From Planctomycetota bacterium (GTDB lineage: Bacteria; Planctomycetota; Planctomycetia; Gemmatales; Gemmataceae), in the NCBI GenBank assembly GCA_016177925.1, contig JACOUH010000243.1, forward strand, positions 1-64,000: DNA of 64,000 bases, written 5' to 3'. Positions 791-61,856 of the stretch are shown here, piece after piece (the first letter of the stretch is position 1; every line of letters begins with the position of its first letter). Position numbers and translations under genes: made by a program. The notes beneath the pieces were generated by a model, which was not told the DNA's origin, searched no databases, and saw nothing but the letters and a program-made list of their open reading frames with translations.

Positions 791-2347
791 ATGTCACTCG
801 ACGACGCCTTCCTGGCCGACATCCTGGAGCACCCCGAAGACGACACACCGCGGCTGGTGTACGCCGACTGGCTCGACGACCACGGACAGGCCGAGCGCGC
901 CGAGTTTATCCGCGTCCAGTGCCGACTGGAAGGGATGCCCGAGGACGACCCGCGCCGCCCGGTCCTCGAAGACCGTGCCGCCGAGCTGGAGCGCATCTGG
1001 GGCTCGATGTGGGCGCAGCCCTTCCGCGAGCACGCCGAGAGGTGGTCTTTTCGTAGAGGATTTGTCGAAGAAATCTGGCTACGGGCGGCTCGGTCCCTTG
1101 CCGGGGCCGGCCGCCTGTTCCGGCAGTCGCCTGTGCGAACCGCCCATCTGAGCCGCTGCACCCGGGACCTGAAGGGGCTCCTGACCTCCCCCTTCCTGCA
1201 GCGGCTGGCGACGCTCGACCTCGGCTTCAACAGGCTGATGGACCACGACATTCGCCAGCTGACCAGCATCGCCGGGCTCCAGAACCTCGTCGCTCTCGAC
1301 CTCGGCCACAACCTCCTCGGCGACCGCGGTGTGGAGGACCTGGCGACATCGCCTTGTCTGACGAACCTCGCTGTCTTGGAACTGGGGTTCAATCCCATGA
1401 TCACCGACCGCGGCGCGCGGGCGCTGGCGGCGTCACGGCAGCTAGGCCGGCTCAACTCGCTCGGCCTCGGCTTCTGTGCAGTCCATCTGGATGGGGCGCA
1501 GGCGATTGTGACATCGCGGGGGCTCGCAGGCCTGCGGGCGCTGGGGCTGGGCCGCTGTCTGCTGGGCAACGAGGGGCTGGCGGCGCTGCTGGCGCTGCCG
1601 CACCTCGGTCGCTTCCGCAGCCTGGTGCTGGACCGCAACGGCATTGACACGGCGGGAGCGCAGGCACTGGCGGAATGCACCTCGCTTGGCGACCTGACAC
1701 GGCTGAGCCTGCACGACAACAAGATCGGCGACGTCGGGGCGCAGGCGCTGGCCTCGGCCCCCCGACTGTCTCACCTGTCCGAACTTGACCTGCACGGGAA
1801 CGACGTCGGCCCAGTAGGAGCGCAGGCGCTGGCCGCTTCTCCCTACCTGGCGCGGTTGACGTGCCTGTTCCTGTCCGAGTGTCCCCTTGGCGAGGCGAGC
1901 GTCTCGGCGCTGGCGGAGTCGCCCCACCTGACCCGTCTGTCCGAGTTGTACATGAACGGCTCCGGTCTCGGTCCTGGCGGGGCCCGCGTGCTCGCCCGTG
2001 CGCCCCTGCTGTCCGGGCTTCGCTTCCTGCAGCTTGCGGACAACGGCATCGGCGACCAGGGAGCACGGGCACTAGCCGCCTCGCCGCACCTCGGACGGTT
2101 GACCGGCCTGCGCCTCGACAGGAACGCCATCGGCGACGCCGGCGCGGCGGCCCTGGCCAACGCTCCGGCCTCCCGGCTGGGCTGGTTGTGCTTGGAGGAC
2201 AACGCCATCGGCGATGAGGGGGCGCTCGCCCTGGCCGCCTCGCCTCGGCTGGAGCGCCTGACTCGCCTCAGTCTTCGTTACAATCAGATTGGCGAGAGGG
2301 GACGCGAAGCACTGCGACGCCGCTTCGGGCAGCGCGTCGAGTTGTAA
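791..2347 (+). CDS. TIGR02996-type domain plus leucine-rich repeat protein
   Basis: The 518-residue product begins with the roughly 45-residue domain that planctomycetes place before LRR arrays (TIGR02996 type): it contains FLADILEHPEDDTPRLVYAD, then WLDDHG and RAEFIRVQ. From about residue 135 to the end there are some thirteen LRRs of 27-28 residues with the pattern LxxLxLxxNxIGDxGAxALAxSP, which would form one curved solenoid for protein binding. No signal peptide or membrane segment is seen, so it is probably cytosolic. The ATG at 791 starts exactly at the conserved MSLDDAFL. The partner is unknown. Such proteins occur in large paralogous sets in Gemmataceae, which helps place the window taxonomically. 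Confidence 0.85.
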   Translation: MSLDDAFLADILEHPEDDTPRLVYADWLDDHGQAERAEFIRVQCRLEGMPEDDPRRPVLEDRAAELERIWGSMWAQPFREHAERWSFRRGFVEEIWLRAARSLAGAGRLFRQSPVRTAHLSRCTRDLKGLLTSPFLQRLATLDLGFNRLMDHDIRQLTSIAGLQNLVALDLGHNLLGDRGVEDLATSPCLTNLAVLELGFNPMITDRGARALAASRQLGRLNSLGLGFCAVHLDGAQAIVTSRGLAGLRALGLGRCLLGNEGLAALLALPHLGRFRSLVLDRNGIDTAGAQALAECTSLGDLTRLSLHDNKIGDVGAQALASAPRLSHLSELDLHGNDVGPVGAQALAASPYLARLTCLFLSECPLGEASVSALAESPHLTRLSELYMNGSGLGPGGARVLARAPLLSGLRFLQLADNGIGDQGARALAASPHLGRLTGLRLDRNAIGDAGAAALANAPASRLGWLCLEDNAIGDEGALALAASPRLERLTRLSLRYNQIGERGREALRRRFGQRVEL

Positions 2348-2349
2348 TC

Positions 2350-2433
2350 TTAGCCCGACGCGCAAGCGAGGAACCCCCGAGCCCGACGCGGCAGTGAAAG
2401 GATGCCGGTTTCCTCGCTTGCGCGTCGGGCTAA
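2350..2433. repeat. Palindromic repeat, family A (TTAGCCCGACGCGCAAGCGAGG)
   Basis: Perfect 24-base arms lie at 2350-2373 and 2410-2433, and the first begins two bases after the LRR gene stop. The 36-base loop holds a further partial copy, GCCCGACGCG. The same element recurs at 32907-32963 and 38320-38374. It could form a strong terminator hairpin, although no T tract follows. The gap to 2645 holds only this and the next repeat. Confidence 0.85.
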
Positions 2434-2524
2434 GGTCTTCGGCTGAACCTCATTGCCTTCTGCTTCACACCGGATGAGAATGTCGGCACGAGCGGTCGAC
2501 CGCCCCTAACTAGCTGCACGCAAG

Positions 2525-2590
2525 AGGGAAAGTAGCCCGCCGCTCCGCGGCGGTTCTTTTCCCGCCGCGGAGCGGCGGGCTACTTTCCCT
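2525..2590. repeat. Long inverted repeat
   Basis: Perfect 29-base arms at 2525-2553 and 2562-2590 start with AGGGAAAGTAGCCCGCCGCT and flank an 8-base loop (TTCTTTTC). It ends 55 bases before the next start codon, so it may be a terminator or leader structure. It is a different sequence family from the neighbour at 2350-2433. Confidence 0.85.
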
Positions 2591-2645: not shown

Positions 2646-4232
2646 ATGCGATCTCTCCTTGCGATCCTCGTCCTCGTGCTGAGCGCCCTTCCCACCCGCG
2701 CGGCGAAGTCGCCTGTCTATGTCTGGCTGGAGCCTGAGTGGTTCGAGGGCGTCAAGGGGACGTTCGCCTACTGGGCCGATGGGACCAAACCACCCAAGCC
2801 GACCGGCGCCTGGGGCATCGCCGGGCCGGGTATCAGCGCCGAGTGGAGCCAGGGCGGCGAGAGTGAATGGAACTCGATCGGCGCCTCCGCCGCGGAGACC
2901 TCCGCCGAGTGCCGCCGCGACCTCGTCGTCCCGCGCGCCGGTAAGTATCGCCTCTGGGTCCGCTATGTCGACCATCGCAAGAAGACGGAGCCGTTCAGTG
3001 TCGCCATCCGCCAAGGGGGCAAGGACGTTCTCGCCGGTGAACTGGGCAGCAAGCCGGTCGTGCCCGCCAACGACGAATACCAGCTTTACTGGGGCTTCTC
3101 GTTCGGCTGGGGCCATGTCGACGGCGACCTCCAGGCCGGGCCCGCTCGGCTGGCGCTGTCGATCAGCAAAACCGGCGAAGCATGGCGCCAGGTCGACGCG
3201 ATCCTGTTGACCGACGACCTCGACTACATCCCCGCCGGCCGCGAGAAGCCGCCCTTCGCCTACGAACGGTCCTTCGGCCTGCACGCGACGAAGGCCGGGC
3301 CGAGCTGGCGCGGCTCAGGCAAAGGCCTGGTTGCCGGGGCGTCGTGGAAGCGACCGGCTGTCGGGGGTCGCGACTTCGCCATGTGGACCGGCGCTGATTC
3401 CGACCCAAAATGGTGGGCAAAGCAGAACACCGCTGCGCTGACGCTGCACGACGTCCTGTTCCAGTTCGCCCCGTCGCCGGACATCCGCGACAAGTTCCAC
3501 CAGCAGTTCGCCGGCCGCAAGGACATCCCGGTGCTATCGTGGCCGCATTTGCTGCCGGGATTCTACCTCGGCTCCACGCCTGACCTCTCGCCCGGCACTC
3601 CGCTGCGCACCTGGCTGGAGCGGACAAAAACGCCCTTCTTCATCCTCACCAACTACGCCTCCGGCCAGTACACCGACAAGACGGGCCGGGCCACCTATGA
3701 GGCCCTCACCGGGCCGCTGTCCGCGCAGTTCCTTGGCTACATCCACGGCGAAGCGCTCGGCACCGGCGGCGTCAGCCCGCCCGACGCCTCCCTCGGCAAG
3801 GATCGCCGCGCTCATGTCGACGCGCTGGGCAAGCGATGGCTGAAACAGCAGGCGGAGGCGTGGAGCAAGATCTACAAGACGCCCGTACCGGAGGGACATT
3901 GGGCGAAGGGCATTTCGTGCCTGTCGGTGGACTCGATCGCACTGGCACACCTGTTCCACGAAATGGGCTCGCAGGTGGTCGGCTATGAGGAGGATGCAAC
4001 GAACGTGCATGTGCCGATGCGGATCGCCTTCGAGCGCGGGGCGGCGCGGCAGTACGGCGGGGCGTGGATCAACTACGCCAGCGGTAACTTCGGCGATGCC
4101 TGCAACTACTTCACGCAGCAGCACATCCCGCGTGGCGCCCCGGCCTGGTTCCATAGCAAGTACGCCATCACCGACGGCGTCAGCGCCGCGTGGTATCGCA
4201 AGCTCTATTATCAACCTCTTTCTCGAGGATAA
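2646..4232 (+). pseudogene. Secreted planctomycete protein, N-terminal part of a broken gene
   Basis: A signal peptide (MRSLLAILVLVLSALPTRA) opens the frame. About 510 residues follow, including a beta-rich segment with VPRAGKYRLWVRYVDH at roughly residues 98-113 that resembles carbohydrate-binding or DUF1080-like modules, and then a longer alpha/beta region. The frame holds good coding character up to WYRKLYY and stops at 4230-4232 within a few codons. The next frame resumes coding at about 4210 and runs to 5127. The most natural reading is one secreted protein of roughly 830 or more residues broken by a frame change near 4205-4225, possibly with loss of sequence. The start is fixed by the signal peptide and the AGGTAAC just upstream. 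The function is unknown. Confidence 0.6.
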
Positions 4233-51119: not shown

Positions 51120-51125
51120 TTGAGC

Positions 51126-51314
51126 GTGACGGTTCGTGAGGTCATCAAGCTGATTGAGGCCGACGGCTGGTATCTCGCCCGCCAGCGGTCCAGCCACCGG
51201 CAGTTCAAGCACTCAACCAAACGGGGACTGGTGACGGTGGCCGGACATCCCTCCAAGGTACTCGCCCCGAAGACACTCAAAAGCATCCTTCGTCAAGCAG
51301 GGCTCGCACCATGA
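51126..51314 (+). CDS. hicA: HicA-type mRNA interferase toxin
   Basis: About 62 residues with the HicA double-stranded RNA-binding-like fold. It opens TVREVIKLIEADGW and holds the catalytic His in RSSHRQFKH (near residue 25), followed by LVTVAGHPSKVLAPKTLKSI. HicA cleaves mRNA independently of ribosomes and is neutralised by HicB. A GTG start at 51126 gives the standard N-terminus; a TTG two codons earlier is possible. The stop overlaps the hicB start by four bases. Toxin-first order is normal for hicAB, and autoregulation usually depends on HicB. Confidence 0.88.
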   Translation: MTVREVIKLIEADGWYLARQRSSHRQFKHSTKRGLVTVAGHPSKVLAPKTLKSILRQAGLAP

Positions 51315-51559
51315 GGTATCTGATCATCCTGGAGCCGACGGCGACGGGTTACTCGGCTTACTCCCCGGACCTGGACGGGTGCGTCGCGGCCGGCGACGAC
51401 CGGGATGAGACGATTGCGCTCATGCAAGAGGCAATCACGTTCCACCTTGAGGGCATGGCCGCAGAGGGCTACCCGCTCCCAGCTCCACGAAGTGAGTCCG
51501 CCTACATCGAGATAGTCGACCCAGGCGCCGCAGAAGACCTTTCTTCCCAGGAGCCGTAG
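51311..51559 (+). CDS. hicB: HicB-type antitoxin
   Basis: This 82-residue protein has the partial RNase H-like fold of HicB: RYLIILEPTATGYSAYSPDL, GCVAAGDDRDETIALMQEAI and FHLEGMAAEGYPLPAP are the family signatures. It lacks a C-terminal DNA-binding domain (HTH or RHH), being only 82 residues long, so autorepression may need another factor or HicA itself. It overlaps hicA by ATGA at 51311-51314. The gene lies 134 bases before the amidohydrolase. Confidence 0.88.
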   Translation: MRYLIILEPTATGYSAYSPDLDGCVAAGDDRDETIALMQEAITFHLEGMAAEGYPLPAPRSESAYIEIVDPGAAEDLSSQEP

Positions 51560-52943: not shown

Positions 52944-53053
52944 CAGCCTCTTGTCCCTCCCTCACGCATTTGGTACATTCAAAACCTCTCATCACATGTG
53001 CTTGCCCATCGAGGGCGACGTGACGAAGAGCCCGGTCTTCGGGAGTTGTGCTG

Positions 53054-55135
53054 GTGCCGCCCGATCCTGCCACAGCTGACGACCCGCGGAGCGCGCTGCA
53101 GCACGCCTGTGCCGAGCTGGAGCGGCGCCTTCGTGCCGGCGAGGACTGTCACGCCGAGCAACTGCTCGCGGACTATCCTGGCCTCGCCTCCGACCCCGAT
53201 TGCGCCCTCGAGTTGGTGCAGGCCGAATGGCTCGCTCGCAAGGCGCTGGGACGCTCTGGCCCGCCCGAGGACTGGTTCACTCGTTTTCCCCAGTGGCGCG
53301 AGTCGCTGAAGCGCTGGCTCGACAGGGATGGCCCGCTACCGGGCAGCACTGCCGACAGCGAACGCACCGTCCCGGCGAGTAACTCCCCGCCCCGGCACCC
53401 CAACCTGCCCCTGCCGGAGCAAACGCTCGACGACCTGGAGGTGCGCGGCGAGATCGGCCACGGCGGCATGGGCAACGTCTACCGCGCCTGGGACCCGATT
53501 CTGAAGCGCGAGGTGGCGCTGAAGAAGATTCGCACGGGCACGCTGGCCACGCCCGAGCAGGTCCACCGCTTCTACCGCGAGGCGCGGGCGGCGGCCCGGT
53601 TGCAGCACCCCAACATCCTGCCGATCCACGGCATGGGGCTGCACCGTGGCGAACACTGCTTCACCATGCCGTTGGTGACCGGCGGTTCCCTCGCCGACCG
53701 GGGCAGCCGCGACAGCGGGTCGGGTCGCTCCGCCGCCGACCCGCGCGGTGCCGTCGCCCTGGTCGAGAAAGTGGCGCGGGCGGTGCAGCACGCTCACCAC
53801 AAGGGCATCATCCACCGCGATCTCAAGCCCGGCAACATCTTCCTCGACGACTGCGGCGAGCCGCTCGTCGGCGACTTCGGCCTCGCCAAGTTCAGCGACC
53901 CCGGCGCCGAGGTGACGCTACCGGGCCAGGTGCTCGGCACGCCCGCCTACATGGCCCCTGAACAGGCTGCCGGCCAGGTCTGGAAGGTCGGCCCCGGCAG
54001 CGATATCTATAGTCTCGGTGTTATCCTCTTCGAGCTGCTCACCGGGCGACGACCCTTCGAGGGCAAGAAGTCGGAGGAGGTCCTGCGGCAGGTCCTGACG
54101 AAGTCGCCGCCACGGCTACGCGAACTGCGTCCTGGCCTGGACCGCGGCCTGGAGGCGATCGTCCTGCGCTGCCTCGAGCGCGAGCCCGAGCACCGCTACG
54201 CCACCGCCGCGGCGCTGGCCGACGACCTGGGACGCTGGCTGCACGGCAGGCCGGTCCGCGCCCTCCGCCTGCCCTGGTTCGCCCCGCCCTGGCGAGCAGG
54301 CCGAGGGCGGTATGCCACCATCGCGGTCCTGCTCCTCTTCTTGACGGCGCTGGTCGTCTTGCTCCCCGGCACTCGCTCCTCATCGTCCCCCGCCACGACA
54401 CAGCCGAAGGGCGACCCCCAAGCGGAGGACGTGCAGGCTGCGCTGCAGCGGGAGCTGGCAGCCGGACGGAAGGTCATGCTGCTCGGGCCAGACGGAAAGC
54501 CGCGCTGGCACCGCTTCCTCACTGAGAAACGGCGCTTACCTGCCGCCGCCCGTCCGGGCGATTCTTTCCGCCTGGAGGCGTGGGACGTCACCCTGATGGA
54601 GCTGCTGCCGACCCCCGGCACGTCCGCGTACCGCTTCGAGGCGGAGGTCCAGCACGAGCAGAGCAACCAGGGGAGGGCAGGGATCTTCTTCGCGGCCCGC
54701 GAGTCCCGCGCCGGGTCCGGTGAATTCTCCTTCTGCACTCTGGCTTATGCCAGTCAGGGCAAGCAGGCTGGCGAATGGCGTTTCTGGCGCCACCGCTACG
54801 CCGAGGCAGGGACCGTCCCCCACGGCCTCAATCTCCCCAGTTCACCGCTGCTGAGCGGCCGGCCGCCTGACCTAAAGCCGGGCAGCAACTCCTGGCGCAG
54901 GCTGGCGATCGAAGTCAGGCCGCGCGAGGTTCGCGTCTTCTGGGAAGACGATCCTGTGCGGGGGATCTCTTGCAAAGCGTTGGAACGACGGACGAGGATC
55001 GTGCTCACCCGGCCCGACTTCCCCCAACTCGGGCCTCTCCCGCCGTTCGACATCCGCGGCAGCCTCGGGCTCTACGTCGACGGCGGCATTGCCTGGTTCA
55101 AGAACGTTGCAGTGACTCCCTTGGCCGATAAGTAA
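53054..55135 (+). CDS. Ser/Thr protein kinase with planctomycete N-domain and C-terminal lectin-like domain (copy 1)
   Basis: In this 693-residue protein, residues 1-92 are a conserved helical domain with ELERRLRAGEDC, YPGLASDPD and RFPQWRESLKRWLD. The kinase domain (128-400) has the G-loop GHGGMGNVY, Lys157/158 in VALKKI, IIHRDLKPGNI, DFGLAKF and GTPAYMAPEQ, all intact. One membrane helix lies at about 416-435 (YATIAVLLLFLTALVVLLP), followed by an extracytoplasmic beta-sandwich (540-690) that ends SLGLYVDGGIAWFKNVAV. GTG at 53054 is preferred because it has GGGAG eight bases upstream and matches the start of copy 2. The next gene starts 24 bases after the stop. Confidence 0.88.
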   Translation: MPPDPATADDPRSALQHACAELERRLRAGEDCHAEQLLADYPGLASDPDCALELVQAEWLARKALGRSGPPEDWFTRFPQWRESLKRWLDRDGPLPGSTADSERTVPASNSPPRHPNLPLPEQTLDDLEVRGEIGHGGMGNVYRAWDPILKREVALKKIRTGTLATPEQVHRFYREARAAARLQHPNILPIHGMGLHRGEHCFTMPLVTGGSLADRGSRDSGSGRSAADPRGAVALVEKVARAVQHAHHKGIIHRDLKPGNIFLDDCGEPLVGDFGLAKFSDPGAEVTLPGQVLGTPAYMAPEQAAGQVWKVGPGSDIYSLGVILFELLTGRRPFEGKKSEEVLRQVLTKSPPRLRELRPGLDRGLEAIVLRCLEREPEHRYATAAALADDLGRWLHGRPVRALRLPWFAPPWRAGRGRYATIAVLLLFLTALVVLLPGTRSSSSPATTQPKGDPQAEDVQAALQRELAAGRKVMLLGPDGKPRWHRFLTEKRRLPAAARPGDSFRLEAWDVTLMELLPTPGTSAYRFEAEVQHEQSNQGRAGIFFAARESRAGSGEFSFCTLAYASQGKQAGEWRFWRHRYAEAGTVPHGLNLPSSPLLSGRPPDLKPGSNSWRRLAIEVRPREVRVFWEDDPVRGISCKALERRTRIVLTRPDFPQLGPLPPFDIRGSLGLYVDGGIAWFKNVAVTPLADK

Positions 55136-55159
55136 CTGCCAGCAAAGGAGATTGTCTTC

Positions 55160-55450
55160 GTGACAGTAACCGTAACCATTACCTCGCCGACCAACGGCTC
55201 CCAGGTAGGCACCACCTTCCAGGCAACAGGTACGGTCAGCCTCAACGGCGCCTCCAACATGCGTGCGTACCTGATCAACAGCACCGGCCAGCTGTTCTAT
55301 GGGCAGCGGCTCGACGGGGGGACGACCAACTGGGCGTTTCAGTTTACCGCCGTCCCGCCGGTGTGGCAGCACGGGGTGACGCTCATCGTCACCGGCGTCG
55401 ACGGCACCGACGTAGGTAGCGACTCCGTCGACATCCAGGTCGTGCCGTGA
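55160..55450 (+). CDS. Small Ig-like beta-protein, partner of kinase copy 1
   Basis: This 96-residue protein has no signal peptide or membrane helix. Alternating strands form an Ig-like sandwich: TVTITSPTNGSQVGTTF, the strand with LINSTGQLFYG, NWAFQFTAV and TLIVTGVDGTDVGSDS. GTG at 55160 follows AAAGGAG. It lies 24 bases after kinase copy 1, and a homologous gene lies 24 bases after copy 2. Identical spacing and shared strands (VT(I)(T/I)SP, (L/V)N(S/A)(T/D)G, (N/D)W(A/T)F(Q/N)F) show the pair was duplicated as a unit. A kinase substrate or ligand role is an inference. Confidence 0.8.
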   Translation: MTVTVTITSPTNGSQVGTTFQATGTVSLNGASNMRAYLINSTGQLFYGQRLDGGTTNWAFQFTAVPPVWQHGVTLIVTGVDGTDVGSDSVDIQVVP

Positions 55451-55493
55451 GGGTTGCTCGCCCGCGGTTCTGTTCTTGCGAAGGATTCCTGTG

Positions 55494-57641
55494 ATGCCCG
55501 ATCCCGCCACCGTTGAAGACGTGCAGAGCCTTCTCCGCCGCGTCTGTGCCGAACTGGAGCGGCGCCTCCAGGTCGGCGAGGACTGCCGCGCCGAGCAGTT
55601 CCTGGAAGCGTACCCCGGGCTGGCCTCCGATCCGGACAGCGCCCTCGAGTTGATCCGGGCGGAGTGGCTGGCCCGCAAGGCGCTGCGGCAGGACGGCAGC
55701 TCCGAAGAGTTGCTGGCGCGTTTTCCCCAGTGGCGGGAGTCGCTGCAGCGCTGGCTCGACCAGGATCCGGCACCGCTTGGCACGACCGATGGTGGGGTGA
55801 GGACCGTCGCCCAGCGTCGCGGCTGCCCGGCAGTGGAACCGGCCCAACCGCTGCCGGTCGCGGCCCAGTCGCTCGACGACCACGAGATCCGGGGCGAACT
55901 GGGACGCGGCGGCATGGGCGTCGTCCACCGCGCCTGGGACCCGACGCTGAAACGCGAGGTGGCGCTGAAGAAGATCCGCGCGGGCACCCTCGCCACGCCC
56001 GACGAGGTGCGCCGCTTCTACCGGGAGGCCGAGGCCGCTGCCCGCCTCTACCACCCCAACATCGTCCCGATTTACGGCATGGGGCTGCACGGCGGCGAGC
56101 ACTGCTTCACCATGTTGCTGCTGACGGGCGGGAGTCTTGAGCAGAACAAGCAGCGTTTCCAGGGCGACGCGCGGGTCGCTGTCCGCCTGGTCGCGAAGGT
56201 GGCGGGGGCGGTCCAGGCGGCTCATGCGAAAGGAATTGTGCATCGGGATCTGAAGCCCGCCAACATCCTCCTCGACGAGCGCGGCGAGCCGTTGGTCAGC
56301 GACTTCGGGCTGGCCAAGCTCAGTGACGTCCGCAGCGAGGAAACGCTGTCCGGCCAGGTGCTGGGGACGCCTGCGTACATGGCCCCCGAACAGGCCGCAG
56401 GGCACACGCGAGCGGCCACCCCGGCAACGGACGTGTGGGCCCTCGGCGTCATCCTCTACGAACTGCTGGCTGGCCGGCGTCCGTTTCACGGGCAGCACAC
56501 CGACGAGATCCTGCGCCAGATCGCGCGGGCCGATCCGCCGCGACTGCACTGCCCGCACGGGCTCGAACGCGACCTGGAAACCATCGTCAACAAGTGCCTG
56601 GAGAAAGACCCGGCTTGTCGTTACGAGTCCGCCGGGGCGCTGGCGGACGACCTGCACCATTGGCAGGCCCACGAGCCGATCGGGGCCCGGCCGCGGCCCT
56701 GGTATCAGCGCCTAGGGCGCTCCTTTGGGCGATATTTCGGGTCGGGGAAGATCGCGTCCCTGCTACTGGGGCTCGTGCTGGTGGGTGCGGGACTGTTAGC
56801 GACCCTCCCGCCGGCCGCAGCTCCCTCGACAGGACTGGAGCCTCCGCAACAGCGGGAGGCACTGGCCCTGGCGGCCCTCCAGCGCGACCTCGCCGCCGGG
56901 AAGACGGTCACCCTGGTGAGTGACAAGGGCGTCCCAGACTGGTATCAATGGCGGACGGAGAAGACGCGGCCCCGCCTGGCGCGGCAGCGTAGTGTCCCCG
57001 TGGGCGTCGAATCCTGGACCATCTGCCTGCTCGAGTTGTTGCCGAGCACGCCGCCCCACTTCGTTCTGAGCGGGGAGGTGCAGCTCGTCGCAACGAACAA
57101 CGGATCGGCCGGCCTCTACTTGTTCGGCGAGGAGCGGCTGACCCCGGACGGCCCGCAGCACCATTTCTGCGCGCTGACAGTCGCTGGCCGGCCGGCGGCG
57201 GCACCCGCTTGGGGGGCGGCGGCCGGCTGGGGCGCGGTGGTCGCCCAGTCGGTCACCGACAAGGGGGCGGCCAGCGAGTTCAGACTGTTTTTCGACCGCT
57301 ACCGCGAGATCGACCGCGACCGCCCCCACGACCGGCGCCGCCTCTCCCTGAGAAGGGCCCCTGTCCCCCTGGGCAAACCCGGCTCCGACGGGTGGTGCCG
57401 GTTGGACGTGGAAGCCACCCTGCCCCTGCTGACCGTCCGAGTAAACGGCCGCCTGCTCCGCCGCCTCCCCCGCGGCGAACAGGACGGGTACGTCCGCCTC
57501 TGGTGGGCGGACCTGCACCGCGAGATGGCCCCCGCTCCGCCGCCTCCGCCCTACGCTCCCGGCGGCGCCCTCGGTCTGTTCGTGGAACGAGGCACAGCTC
57601 GCTTTCGGAACGTTATCGTTCAACCGCTTCCCGAGCGGTGA
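55494..57641 (+). CDS. Ser/Thr protein kinase with planctomycete N-domain and C-terminal lectin-like domain (copy 2)
   Basis: This 715-residue protein is paralogous to the gene at 53054 along its length. The N-domain (1-92) has ELERRLQVGEDC and FPQWRESLQRWLD. The kinase (130-400) has GRGGMGVVHRAWD, LKREVALKKI, IVHRDLKPANILL, VSDFGLAKL and GTPAYMAPEQ, all intact. A helix at about 427-447 (IASLLLGLVLVGAGLLATLP) spans the membrane, and a beta-sandwich tail has LQRDLAAGKTVTL and LGLFVERGTARFRNVIV as in copy 1. ATG at 55494 is 43 bases after the small beta-protein of copy 1, so all four genes are likely one transcript. Kinase target unknown. Confidence 0.88.
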   Translation: MPDPATVEDVQSLLRRVCAELERRLQVGEDCRAEQFLEAYPGLASDPDSALELIRAEWLARKALRQDGSSEELLARFPQWRESLQRWLDQDPAPLGTTDGGVRTVAQRRGCPAVEPAQPLPVAAQSLDDHEIRGELGRGGMGVVHRAWDPTLKREVALKKIRAGTLATPDEVRRFYREAEAAARLYHPNIVPIYGMGLHGGEHCFTMLLLTGGSLEQNKQRFQGDARVAVRLVAKVAGAVQAAHAKGIVHRDLKPANILLDERGEPLVSDFGLAKLSDVRSEETLSGQVLGTPAYMAPEQAAGHTRAATPATDVWALGVILYELLAGRRPFHGQHTDEILRQIARADPPRLHCPHGLERDLETIVNKCLEKDPACRYESAGALADDLHHWQAHEPIGARPRPWYQRLGRSFGRYFGSGKIASLLLGLVLVGAGLLATLPPAAAPSTGLEPPQQREALALAALQRDLAAGKTVTLVSDKGVPDWYQWRTEKTRPRLARQRSVPVGVESWTICLLELLPSTPPHFVLSGEVQLVATNNGSAGLYLFGEERLTPDGPQHHFCALTVAGRPAAAPAWGAAAGWGAVVAQSVTDKGAASEFRLFFDRYREIDRDRPHDRRRLSLRRAPVPLGKPGSDGWCRLDVEATLPLLTVRVNGRLLRRLPRGEQDGYVRLWWADLHREMAPAPPPPPYAPGGALGLFVERGTARFRNVIVQPLPER

Positions 57642-57665
57642 AACTCTTTCCTACGGAGAGCACTC

Positions 57666-58025
57666 ATGGCGAAAAAATGGTACGTCAAGAGTAGTCGCAC
57701 AATCACCATCACGAACAAGGACCTCAAGCCCGCCCTGAGCGTGACCATCATCAGCCCGCTCGACGACCTCAGCCAGCAACCGAACAATCCCTTCGTCGCC
57801 GTGGCGACTGTCACCGGAGCAAGCACTCCCCCGACCGCGTGGCTGGTCAATGCGGACGGCACCCGGATCAATCCTTCATCGATGTCGCAGTCGGGGAATG
57901 ACTGGACGTTCAACTTCGGCACCGCCGCGAACCCGATCCCGGCCGGCTACTACCTCCTCACCGTGACGGCCACAAACCCCCCCAACACGGCGAGCGATAC
58001 CATTCCTGTCCTCGTCAAGGTGTGA
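57666..58025 (+). CDS. Small Ig-like beta-protein, partner of kinase copy 2
   Basis: This 119-residue protein is homologous to the 96-residue gene at 55160, with an N-terminal extension (MAKKWYVKSSRTITITNKD). Shared strands are VTIISP, AWLVNADGTRI and NDWTFNFGTA, then YYLLTVTATNPPN. There is no export signal. It starts 24 bases after the kinase stop with a GGAGA site, the same spacing as in copy 1. Its last 76 bases overlap the antisense zinc-ribbon frame, which supports the view that the antisense C-terminus is not real coding sequence. Confidence 0.8.
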   Translation: MAKKWYVKSSRTITITNKDLKPALSVTIISPLDDLSQQPNNPFVAVATVTGASTPPTAWLVNADGTRINPSSMSQSGNDWTFNFGTAANPIPAGYYLLTVTATNPPNTASDTIPVLVKV

Positions 58026-58504: not shown

Positions 58505-58653
58505 GGTTGTCCTCGCAAGCGGATTCTCTCCCAATAGGTTGATGATACACAGTGGCAAATCGCTGGCCACAGGCTGTTCGCTCATCTTGCTGGTTCGCAC
58601 GCCGTCGCTATCGTACCCAGCAGCCCTCCCGCCTTTTTTCAGGACGGCACGCC

Positions 58654-60159
58654 ATGAATCCTCGTCTCACTCTCGCCGATCTGTTCACCCGCGCGCAGCC
58701 CGGGCACGCAGCGGTCATCCTGCCCGAGGATGGGTTCACGACAAGCTACCGCAGCCTGACAGTGCAGATCGAGGCGCTGGCGGCGATGCTGCGCGGCGTG
58801 CTGCGGCCGGGACAGGTAGTGGCGATCGTGCTGGCCAACGGGCTGGAGTATCTGGCGTCGTTCCTGGCAGTGGCGCGGGCGCGGCTGGTGGCGGCGCCGC
58901 TCAACCCGGCATACAAGCCCGACGAGGTCCGCTTCTACCTTGAGGACTCCGGTGCCGCGGCGCTGATCGTTCCGCCCGAGGCGCACCCGTCCCGCGACGT
59001 GGCCCGCGAGCTGGGACTGTCCGTCTGGAGCGCCACCCGCGACGGACGCGGGCAGGTCCGCGTCGAGGGGGTCGGGCTGGCGCCGACGGGCCTCGACGTG
59101 GAACCGCCACGGCCCGATGACGTGGCGCTGTTCCTGCACACCAGCGGCACGACGAGCCGGCCCAAGGGCGTGCCGCTGACCCACGGCAACCTGATGGCGT
59201 CGGTCGACAACATCGCGACACACTATCAACTGAGTCCCGCCGACACCGGTCTTGTCCTGATGCCGCAGTTTCATGTGCATGGGCTGGTCGGGTCAACGCT
59301 GGCGCCGCTGTACGCTGGCGGAACGATCGTCACTCCGCCGCGTTTCAGCGCCAGCGGCTTGTGGCCGGCGGTACGGGCGTATCACGTCACGTGGTACTCG
59401 TCGGCGCCGACGATCCATCAGATCCTTCTCGCACGAGCCGACAGCGACAGCGCCCCGGCGCAGAGCGGCTTCCGCTTCATCCGCTCGTGCAGCGCGGCGC
59501 TGTCGGGCCTGACGCTGGCCGGCCTCGAGTCGCGTTTCGGCGCCCCGGTGCTGGAAGCCTACGCGATGACCGAGGCATCGCATCAGATGACGTCAAATCC
59601 GTTGCCGCCGGGCACTCGCAAGCCGGGCAGCGTCGGCCGCGGGACGAACGTCGAGGTTGGCATCATGGACGAGGCGGGGAATCTGCTCCCGGCCGGGACG
59701 CAGGGCGAGGTGGTGATACGCGGGCCGAACGTGACGCACGGCTACCACAACAATCCCGAGGCGAACGCCACTTCATTTACCAACGGCTGGTTCCGCACGG
59801 GAGACCGCGGCGTGATGGATAGCGAAGGCTATTTGACGCTTATCGGGCGCATCAAGGAGCTGATCAACCGCGGCGGTGAGAAAATTTCGCCTTTGGAGAT
59901 CGACGCCGTGCTACTGGAGCATCCCGCGGTCGCGGAGGTCGCGACCTTTGCCGCGCCCGACCCGAAGTACGGCGAGGAGGTCCACGCCGCCGTGGTGCTG
60001 AAGGGCGAGGTGACGGCCGAGCAACTGCAAGCGCACTGCGGCGCGCGGTTGGCGGACTTCAAGGTGCCGAAGGTGATACACATCACGAAGGAGCTGCCGC
60101 GGACGGCGACGGGCAAGGTCCAGCGCCGGCAGGTGGCGGCGGCATTTCTCAAAAGCTGA
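58654..60159 (+). CDS. Acyl-CoA synthetase, possibly oxalate-CoA ligase
   Basis: This 501-residue adenylate-forming enzyme has the ATP/AMP signature LFLHTSGTTSRPKGV near residue 160, the AMP-binding YAMTEASHQM (near 305), the hinge TGDRGVMDSEGYL and GRIKELINRGGEKISP, and the C-terminal catalytic Lys in PRTATGKVQRR. Among fatty-acyl and oxalate ligases, FHVHGLVGSTLAPLYAGG and the following gene point to the Pcs60/AAE3 type that makes oxalyl-CoA. The next gene starts 11 bases after the stop and encodes a ThDP enzyme. Other substrates such as malonate or fatty acids are possible. ATG at 58654 follows AGGACGGCACGCC. Confidence 0.82.
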   Translation: MNPRLTLADLFTRAQPGHAAVILPEDGFTTSYRSLTVQIEALAAMLRGVLRPGQVVAIVLANGLEYLASFLAVARARLVAAPLNPAYKPDEVRFYLEDSGAAALIVPPEAHPSRDVARELGLSVWSATRDGRGQVRVEGVGLAPTGLDVEPPRPDDVALFLHTSGTTSRPKGVPLTHGNLMASVDNIATHYQLSPADTGLVLMPQFHVHGLVGSTLAPLYAGGTIVTPPRFSASGLWPAVRAYHVTWYSSAPTIHQILLARADSDSAPAQSGFRFIRSCSAALSGLTLAGLESRFGAPVLEAYAMTEASHQMTSNPLPPGTRKPGSVGRGTNVEVGIMDEAGNLLPAGTQGEVVIRGPNVTHGYHNNPEANATSFTNGWFRTGDRGVMDSEGYLTLIGRIKELINRGGEKISPLEIDAVLLEHPAVAEVATFAAPDPKYGEEVHAAVVLKGEVTAEQLQAHCGARLADFKVPKVIHITKELPRTATGKVQRRQVAAAFLKS

Positions 60160-60170
60160 GGAGCGAGGTC

Positions 60171-61856
60171 ATGGCCACGACGGTTCAGCGGGATGCAGCC
60201 ACTTCGACGCGCACCGTGACGGGGGGACATCTCGTGGCCCGTGCGCTGAAGGCCGAGGGCATCGAGGCGATCTTCACGCTGTGCGGCGGGCACATCATGG
60301 ACATCTACGATGGCTGCGTCGACGCCGGTATCCGCATCGTCGACGTGCGCCACGAGCAGGCTGCCGCCCATGCCGCCGACGCCTGGACTCGCCTCACTGG
60401 CGTCCCTGGCTGCGCCGTCGTGACCGCTGGCCCGGGCCTCACCGATACCGTCACGGCCGTTGCCAACGCCTGGCGCGCCCAGACGCCGATGCTCGTCATC
60501 GGCGGCCAGGGACCGCTCGGGCAGGCGCACATGGGATCGCTGCAGGAACTCGATCATGTCGGCCTGCTGCGGCCCATCACCAAATTCGCCACCACTGTTT
60601 ACCACACCGAAAGAATCCCCGAGATCCTCAGCACCGCGTTTCGACAGGCGTACAACGGACGTCCCGGACCTGCCTTCGTCGAGATCCCTGCCGACGTCCT
60701 TTTCAGTCCCGTCGACGAGAATGCCGTCATCGATCCCGGCAAGTACCGCTCAGCCGGCAAAGCCTACGGCGACATCCGCCTCGTCGAGGAAGCGGCCCGT
60801 CTGCTGAGCGTTGCTCAGCGTCCCGCCGTCCTTGCCGGCAGCCAGGTCTGGCACTGCCGCGGCGTCGCCGAATTGCAGAGCCTCGCCGAGTCGCTGTCGC
60901 TGCCCGTCTATCTCAATGGCTCCGCCCGCGGGGCGCTGCCGCCGGGACACCCACTGCTGTTCGTGCGGTCCCGGCGCGAGGCCCTCGCCCGGGCCGACGT
61001 TGTCCTCATCGTCGGCACCCCCTTCGACTTCCGCCTCGGCTACGGTCGCCGCCTCGCTTCCGACGCCAAGATCATCCAGGTCGACCTCGACTACGGCGAA
61101 CTGGGCCACAATCGCGGCGTCGACGTCGCCATCGCCGGCGACGCCGCGGCGGTGCTGGGTCAGCTCGCTGCCGCGGCTCGACCGGTCGCCGGGCAGACGA
61201 AGGCATGGCTTGATCACCTCCGCGCTGCCGAGCAGAAGGCCCTCGACAAGGACCTGCCGTTGATGAACTCCGAGGCAATGCCGATCCACCCGCTGCGGCT
61301 GGCAACAGAAATCAACGACTTCCTGACGTCCGATACGATCTTCATCGGCGATGGCGGCGATGTGGTGACATTCAGCGCCAGCGTGATCCAGACGCGCAAG
61401 CCGGGGCAGTGGCTCGACCCCGGCCCGCTCGGCACGCTCGGTGTCGGCATGCCGTTCGCCATCGCCGCCAAGGTGGCGCGGCCCGACCAGGAAGCGTTCA
61501 TCCTCTTTGGCGACGGAGCATTCGGCCTCAACGGCTTCGAGTTCGACACGGCCCTGCGCTTCAACTTGCCCGTCGTGTCGGTGGTCGGTAACAATGCGGC
61601 GTGGAACCAGATCCGTTATGGACAGGTTTCGCGCTACGGTGAGGCCCGCGGCGACATTGCGAACCTGTTGGCACCGACGCCCTACGACCGTGTCGTCGAG
61701 GCGCTGGGCGGTCATGGCGAGCACGTCACCGAGCCGAAGAAGATCCGTCCGGCCCTCGAGCGCGCCCGCGCCTCGGGCAAGGCATCGTGCGTCAACGTCA
61801 TGATCGACCCCAACGTCTACAGCCCTGGGACGATGAACCAGACCATGTACAAGTAG
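60171..61856 (+). CDS. Thiamine diphosphate enzyme, possibly oxalyl-CoA decarboxylase / 2-hydroxyacyl-CoA lyase-like
   Basis: In this 561-residue protein of the acetolactate synthase superfamily, the Pyr domain (18-185) has the catalytic Glu in VDVRHEQAAAHAADA (near residue 61), the central domain is at 205-340, and the PP domain (375-550) has the ThDP/Mg site GDGAFGLNG with NNAAWN 26 residues later. Acetolactate synthases have a different C-terminal part and no FAD-specific features are clear. The coupled acyl-CoA ligase upstream (11-base gap, GAGGAGCGAGGTC ribosome site) suggests a pair like AAE3 and oxalyl-CoA decarboxylase or HACL1. Formate and CO2 release from oxalate is an inference. 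Confidence 0.8.
   Translation: MATTVQRDAATSTRTVTGGHLVARALKAEGIEAIFTLCGGHIMDIYDGCVDAGIRIVDVRHEQAAAHAADAWTRLTGVPGCAVVTAGPGLTDTVTAVANAWRAQTPMLVIGGQGPLGQAHMGSLQELDHVGLLRPITKFATTVYHTERIPEILSTAFRQAYNGRPGPAFVEIPADVLFSPVDENAVIDPGKYRSAGKAYGDIRLVEEAARLLSVAQRPAVLAGSQVWHCRGVAELQSLAESLSLPVYLNGSARGALPPGHPLLFVRSRREALARADVVLIVGTPFDFRLGYGRRLASDAKIIQVDLDYGELGHNRGVDVAIAGDAAAVLGQLAAAARPVAGQTKAWLDHLRAAEQKALDKDLPLMNSEAMPIHPLRLATEINDFLTSDTIFIGDGGDVVTFSASVIQTRKPGQWLDPGPLGTLGVGMPFAIAAKVARPDQEAFILFGDGAFGLNGFEFDTALRFNLPVVSVVGNNAAWNQIRYGQVSRYGEARGDIANLLAPTPYDRVVEALGGHGEHVTEPKKIRPALERARASGKASCVNVMIDPNVYSPGTMNQTMYK

Follow-up and report, generated by a model that had tools for sequence, protein, structure and literature searches.

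Transmembrane Ser/Thr kinases of the Gemmataceae that bear a predicted lectin-like jelly-roll domain on their outer side are encoded as a unit with a small Ig-like protein: about 92 of 105 such kinases have, directly downstream and in the same orientation, a small gene for a beta-rich protein (curated count). Judged from the sequences, the best explanation, which we hold tentatively, is that the small Ig protein might serve its own receptor kinase, in the cytosol, as a dedicated client or output adaptor. The starting point is a stretch of 64,000 nucleotides (contig JACOUH010000243.1, positions 1 to 64,000; here called the window), whose positions 53054-58025 hold, on the plus strand and in the order K1, S1, K2, S2, two copies of one kinase/small-gene unit:

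53054..55135, plus strand: K1, transmembrane Ser/Thr kinase with N-domain, Pkinase domain, one TM helix and extracytoplasmic jelly-roll domain (Pfam Pkinase, 152 bits)
54422..55132, plus strand: outer domain of K1, predicted lectin-like jelly roll (AlphaFold2, Foldseek; no Pfam family)
55160..55450, plus strand: S1, small Ig-fold partner (96 aa) starting 24 nt behind the K1 stop (AlphaFold2, matches to Ig-fold structures, profile from another genus)
55494..57641, plus strand: K2, transmembrane Ser/Thr kinase built as K1 and its sister (Pfam Pkinase, 160 bits)
56862..57638, plus strand: outer domain of K2 (match to profile A6, E=2e-45)
57666..58025, plus strand: S2, small Ig-fold partner homologous to S1 (119 aa), N-terminally extended by a basic stretch and starting 24 nt behind the K2 stop

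The first-pass annotation had described these four genes as a duplicated module, which is confirmed by identities of 47% between K1 and K2 (732 alignment columns) and 30% between S1 and S2 (E=5e-7) and by the gap of 24 nt in both pairs. K1 and K2 are sister kinases in the tree (SH-aLRT 98). The start of K1 lies at 53048 or 53054—GTG in either case—with 53054 fitting the K2 start MPDPAT by homology; K2 starts at 55476 (TTG) or 55494 (ATG). Shine-Dalgarno-like sequences precede S1 (AAGGAG) and S2 (GGAGAG).

The common N-domain of 90 residues that had been noted in both kinases is 69% identical between them (E=7e-38) and nearly private to this pair, as a relative was found in just one further protein genome-wide. 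The kinase domains are intact as claimed: Pfam Pkinase scores 152.1 bits in K1 (residues 131-391) and 159.7 bits in K2 at a cut-off of 31.7, and the motifs EVALKKI, HRDLKPGNIF/HRDLKPANIL and DFGLAKF/DFGLAKL keep the Lys, the HRD Asp and the DFG Asp. Each kinase bears a single hydrophobic segment with an excess of Lys and Arg on the kinase side, in line with the one membrane helix described, and this arrangement extends to the family, where a TM segment separates kinase and outer domain in 97 kinases and the kinase side is richer in Lys and Arg in 86 of these 97. That planctomycetes possess many such kinases is reflected in 128 Pkinase matches in the genome of the window. Two more specific identities were rejected. 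NCBIfam PknB_PASTA_kin, the best model, covers the catalytic part only and stays, at 257.8 and 239.6 bits, below its cut-off of 450, the outer domain being a jelly roll instead; and the PADLOC matches to defence kinases (PD-T4-6 and others) cover only the generic kinase domain (residues ~123-405), with no PADLOC match for S1 or S2.

The outer domain had been called lectin-like, and structure prediction bears this out. AlphaFold2 with a family alignment gives a jelly-roll model for the K1 outer domain (pLDDT 86.9, pTM 0.89), whose Foldseek matches are CBM66, galectin-like and 3-keto-glycoside hydrolase structures—that is, a predicted fold of the ConA/galectin/CBM66 type. No Pfam family exceeds its cut-off for this domain in the scan of K1 or in 58 scanned family members; 3keto-disac_hyd (PF06439) was rejected at 11.4 bits against 26.8 for K1, with a weak match in 4 of the 58. 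The domain is always C-terminal in its kinase. A first profile of it recovered kinases in 45 of 95 Gemmataceae genomes, about 65 in all, and the refined profile A6 found such kinases in 58 of the 102 genomes of the order (Gemmataceae plus one sister family), four of them from the sister family. In a sample of 291 genomes from elsewhere in the phylum, with the top candidates scored per genome, the domain was not found. A search of plasmids gave no match.

The small proteins had been claimed to be related beta-sandwich proteins. Besides their detectable homology, AlphaFold2 with a family alignment predicts an Ig sandwich of eight strands for S1 (pLDDT 93.2, pTM 0.85); Foldseek aligns this model to solved Ig-fold domains with TM-scores of up to 0.74. 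Named Pfam Big families stay below their cut-offs in S1 and S2 (Big_7 16.5 vs 24.1 bits, likewise A2M_BRD 17.9 vs 22.7), and across the family most partners lack any Pfam family, with weak Gmad2 matches in 4 of 52 and Big_7 in one; no FHA domain was found in any partner scanned. Partners either comprise a single Ig domain of about 95-130 aa or reach roughly double this length. At L102, the partner ORF after position 3345 finishes with a very long C-terminal polyproline tail whose last residues are HHHP.

The association was assessed for 108 distinct outer-domain kinases from 57 genomes, of which the 105 given above have sufficient downstream DNA; "directly downstream" covers partner starts from -35 to about +160 nt. 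About 60 partners are recognised by an iterated Ig profile, the others being classed by position, size and eye. Four further kinases have their partner 255-600 nt off or upstream (L059, L079, L105, L056), and only 9 of 105 have none. By an automatic rule, any small coding-like ORF follows 51 of 65 outer-domain kinases vs 9 of 40 control kinases, and an ORF matching the Ig profile at E<=0.1 follows 21 of 65 vs 0 of 40. The iterated Ig profile matches 51 called partners and about 10 adjacent ORFs, with 0 of 38 for the control kinases. Hereby, the Ig-like neighbour predicted the receptor, since the controls L123 and L143/L195, which have Ig-like neighbours, were later shown with profile A6 to bear the outer domain. 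Likewise, a kinase at G086:C900, missed by the first outer-domain profile, was recovered via its Ig neighbour.

Profiles that make no use of gene order lead to the same picture. A profile of S1 and S2 alone, run on 149 relatives, matched in just two more genomes, and both matches are the ORF directly behind a kinase bearing the same outer domain. A genus-held-out profile, trained on the 18 partner sequences of genus g17 and run on all partners, the controls and 5,484 other ORFs, matched 35 ORFs in other genera—every one downstream of an outer-domain kinase, and including S1 (E=2e-7) and S2 (E=8e-4)—and none of the controls or of the 5,484 unrelated ORFs. Genome-wide, the short frames found by the Ig profile A7 all adjoin outer-domain kinases except L199 (G039, separated) and L200 (G060, a secreted relative); as A7 was built including those partners, it is the lack of other matches that is informative. 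Weak Ig matches at L192, L193 and L194 were judged spurious, being likely non-gene frames according to ORF maps, and of the A7 matches in frames of ~550 aa one was inspected (L201), which by appearance is a sialate O-acetylesterase-like protein with a signal peptide. The search beside such kinases in other Gemmataceae, as proposed by the first-pass annotation, hence shows that homologues of the kinases usually have the small gene and that the small proteins almost never stand apart from kinases; its suggestion of functional pairing and joint duplication withstood both attempts at refutation, as far as sequence comparison can probe it.

Some loci depart from the common layout. L162 carries two related Ig partner genes in tandem behind one kinase (1798-2559, minus strand), and the two-domain Ig protein at L056 lies just before its kinase, the sole case of reversed gene order. 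Within one genus, the Ig gene is found ~580 nt from the kinase in one genome and at another locus in a second (L199:3415-3762 and L105:3888-4535)—a relocation that offers a possible natural test of partner dependence.

The exact spacing of 24 bases emphasised by the first-pass annotation holds for both window pairs and fails for the family. Among 87 pairs, the distance between kinase and partner varies from -26 to about +60 nt (median 17), and just 6 of the 87 have 24 nt. A 4-nt overlap, as in translational coupling, is seen in 15 of 87. These varied gaps and overlaps rule out a conserved spacing of 24 nt as a family feature, and the identical gaps in the window are attributed to local duplication. 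In the window, kinase and small gene share one reading frame across the kinase stop in each pair; readthrough into a kinase-Ig fusion is nevertheless unsupported, with gap frames of 33/21/33, common frame-shifted overlaps and mixed stop codons. True kinase-Ig fusions were found in 0 of 109 cases.

Tandem arrays occur elsewhere (L057, L061, L078, L081, L168, L170, L176, L189), and show repeated duplication, mostly with one partner per kinase. Within these units, the parts diverge at different rates: between K1 and K2, catalytic domains share 66% and outer domains 38% identity, next to 30-31% for the partners. Hence, catalytic domains diverge slowly, and outer domain and partner diverge together. 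Partial correlations of partner similarity amount to 0.49 with the outer domain, 0.30 with the N-domain and -0.24 with the catalytic domain. This covariation could reflect a contact on the outer side, or merely fast evolution of both elements together with adjacency.

Clues on the location of the partners point in more than one direction. The absence of an export signal claimed for S1 and S2 stands, as no signal peptide is seen in either of them, and about 85 partners bear essentially no signal peptide or TM segment. The exceptions—L161, truncated at the end of its contig, and probably L157, which has a hydrophobic segment at its N-terminus—both belong to the sister family. Five partners carry Lys/Ala/Pro-rich histone-H1-like tails, N-terminal in L123, L170, L180 and L182 and C-terminal in L173, and the L066 partner bears a basic C-tail; tailed partners occur in several lineages, and the tails join small beta-rich or Ig-like proteins. 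By sequence character, such tails would fit a location in the cytosol or at the nucleoid. The Ig domains themselves contain few charged residues (12% KRDE) and many Ser and Thr residues (21%). At L059 (5253-6662), the Ig partner ends a much larger frame without Pfam match that contains a motif, VRLDVERLDCRALPGS, like those of planctomycete extracellular N-termini.

The proposed mechanism would connect these elements as follows. The jelly-roll domain would face the extracytoplasmic side, probably as a sensor of glycans or other surface ligands, and one TM helix would link it to a predicted active Hanks-type kinase in the cytosol. The Ig protein would be translated beside its kinase from the same mRNA and, bearing no export signal, would remain in the cytosol, where the kinase would bind and probably phosphorylate it; the partner would then pass the signal on—to DNA, perhaps, for those with histone-H1-like tails. 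As unit and partner duplicate jointly, a genome of about 100 kinases could keep its pairs insulated. Such a client is supported by the pairing itself, by the shared strand and gene order, by the overlaps, and by joint duplication and missing export signals. Against it stand the secreted-looking Ig composition, the covariation with the outer domain, L157 and L059, and the partnerless kinases.

Most of these objections feed the main rival, in which the Ig partner is exported without a classical signal peptide and acts on the extracytoplasmic side of the membrane, where it would serve the outer domain as co-receptor or ligand-binding subunit. Ig-like domains of such composition are usually extracellular, the outer domain is the best correlate of partner similarity, and L157 with its hydrophobic N-terminus, L059 with its extracellular-type motif and the secreted relative L200 away from kinases would all fit. 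Yet, essentially none of about 85 partners has a signal peptide or TM segment, several bear polycationic tails, and the partner is never fused to the outer domain despite the adjoining genes. We hence regard this co-receptor as possible but clearly less likely than a cytosolic client, which seems the most economical reading of the sequence data.

A cytosolic partner need not be an output, as it might also be an inhibitor or regulatory subunit that keeps its cognate kinase inactive as long as nothing engages the outer domain. The strict one-to-one pairing, the 4-nt overlaps suggestive of translational coupling and the rapid co-divergence would suit such a stoichiometric regulator. However, the partners do not diverge in step with the catalytic domain, and tails of the H1 type point to an output, which leaves inhibition somewhat less probable than even the co-receptor. 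A folding or assembly factor of the kinase could likewise be small, highly diverged and encoded beside it, but an Ig fold, H1-type tails and two-domain forms would be unusual in a chaperone and about 9% of the kinases manage without a partner, so that this role is improbable. Lastly, the genes might be chance neighbours, or products of a recent local duplication that has no functional meaning; local duplication does account for the identical gaps of 24 nt. The pairing, though, recurs in many genera at high divergence and is specific with respect to 38 controls and about 5,500 other ORFs; as it survives the genus-held-out profile test, this reading is already refuted.

Among known systems, PknB/PASTA receptor kinases share with K1 and K2 the cytosolic Pkinase domain, the one TM helix and the C-terminal extracytoplasmic sensor. 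K1 and K2 differ in lacking PASTA repeats and in bearing the 90-residue N-domain, the jelly-roll outer domain and an adjacent Ig-fold partner. PknG-GarA, PknH-EmbR and PpkA-Fha each couple a kinase to a dedicated neighbouring beta-sandwich substrate, and their clients have FHA domains; the logic of one kinase and one client is alike, whereas the partners described here have an Ig fold and no FHA match. In two-component systems, a membrane sensor and its cognate downstream protein are encoded alongside each other and duplicated as pairs. This likeness is an analogy only, as the K1-S1/K2-S2 unit has no histidine kinase or receiver domain. Still, one may speculate—with considerable doubt—that the Gemmataceae possess a Ser/Thr analogue of two-component signalling, made up of many paralogous, insulated pairs of receptor kinase and Ig client, with some H1-tailed clients acting directly on the nucleoid. 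Bacterial Ig domains such as Big_7 and Gmad2 have a similar fold; the present partners are set apart by being stand-alone, small, free of signal peptides and located beside kinases.

Receptor-type Hanks kinases and the large kinomes of the Gemmataceae are already known from the relevant passages of two papers (PMC11032199, PMC8567305), which give about 98-140 Ser/Thr kinases per proteome and discuss WD40 and TPR fusions. These passages name neither the present outer domain nor a neighbouring Ig gene. With 100 or more Ser/Thr kinases, the Gemmataceae have some of the largest kinomes known in bacteria. The literature searched, to which subscription papers do not belong, contains no mention of the outer domain, the neighbouring Ig gene or their pairing and assigns no substrates to Gemmataceae kinases. 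Hence, neither the obligate Ig partner nor the outer-domain family seems to have been described so far. They define two apparently new protein families, a jelly-roll receptor domain and an Ig partner, and through the one-to-one unit every kinase of this receptor class gains a named partner that can be tested.

The surroundings of the kinase cluster hold two further gene pairs. Downstream, at 58552-61856 on the plus strand, an AMP-binding enzyme of the acyl-CoA synthetase type is followed after 11 nt by a TPP enzyme (Pfam); the pair looks like an operon of an oxalate-type CoA ligase and an oxalyl-CoA decarboxylase-like enzyme, with the substrate being a guess. Upstream, at 51120-51559 on the plus strand, a HicA toxin and a HicB-like antitoxin overlap by 4 nt (Pfam).
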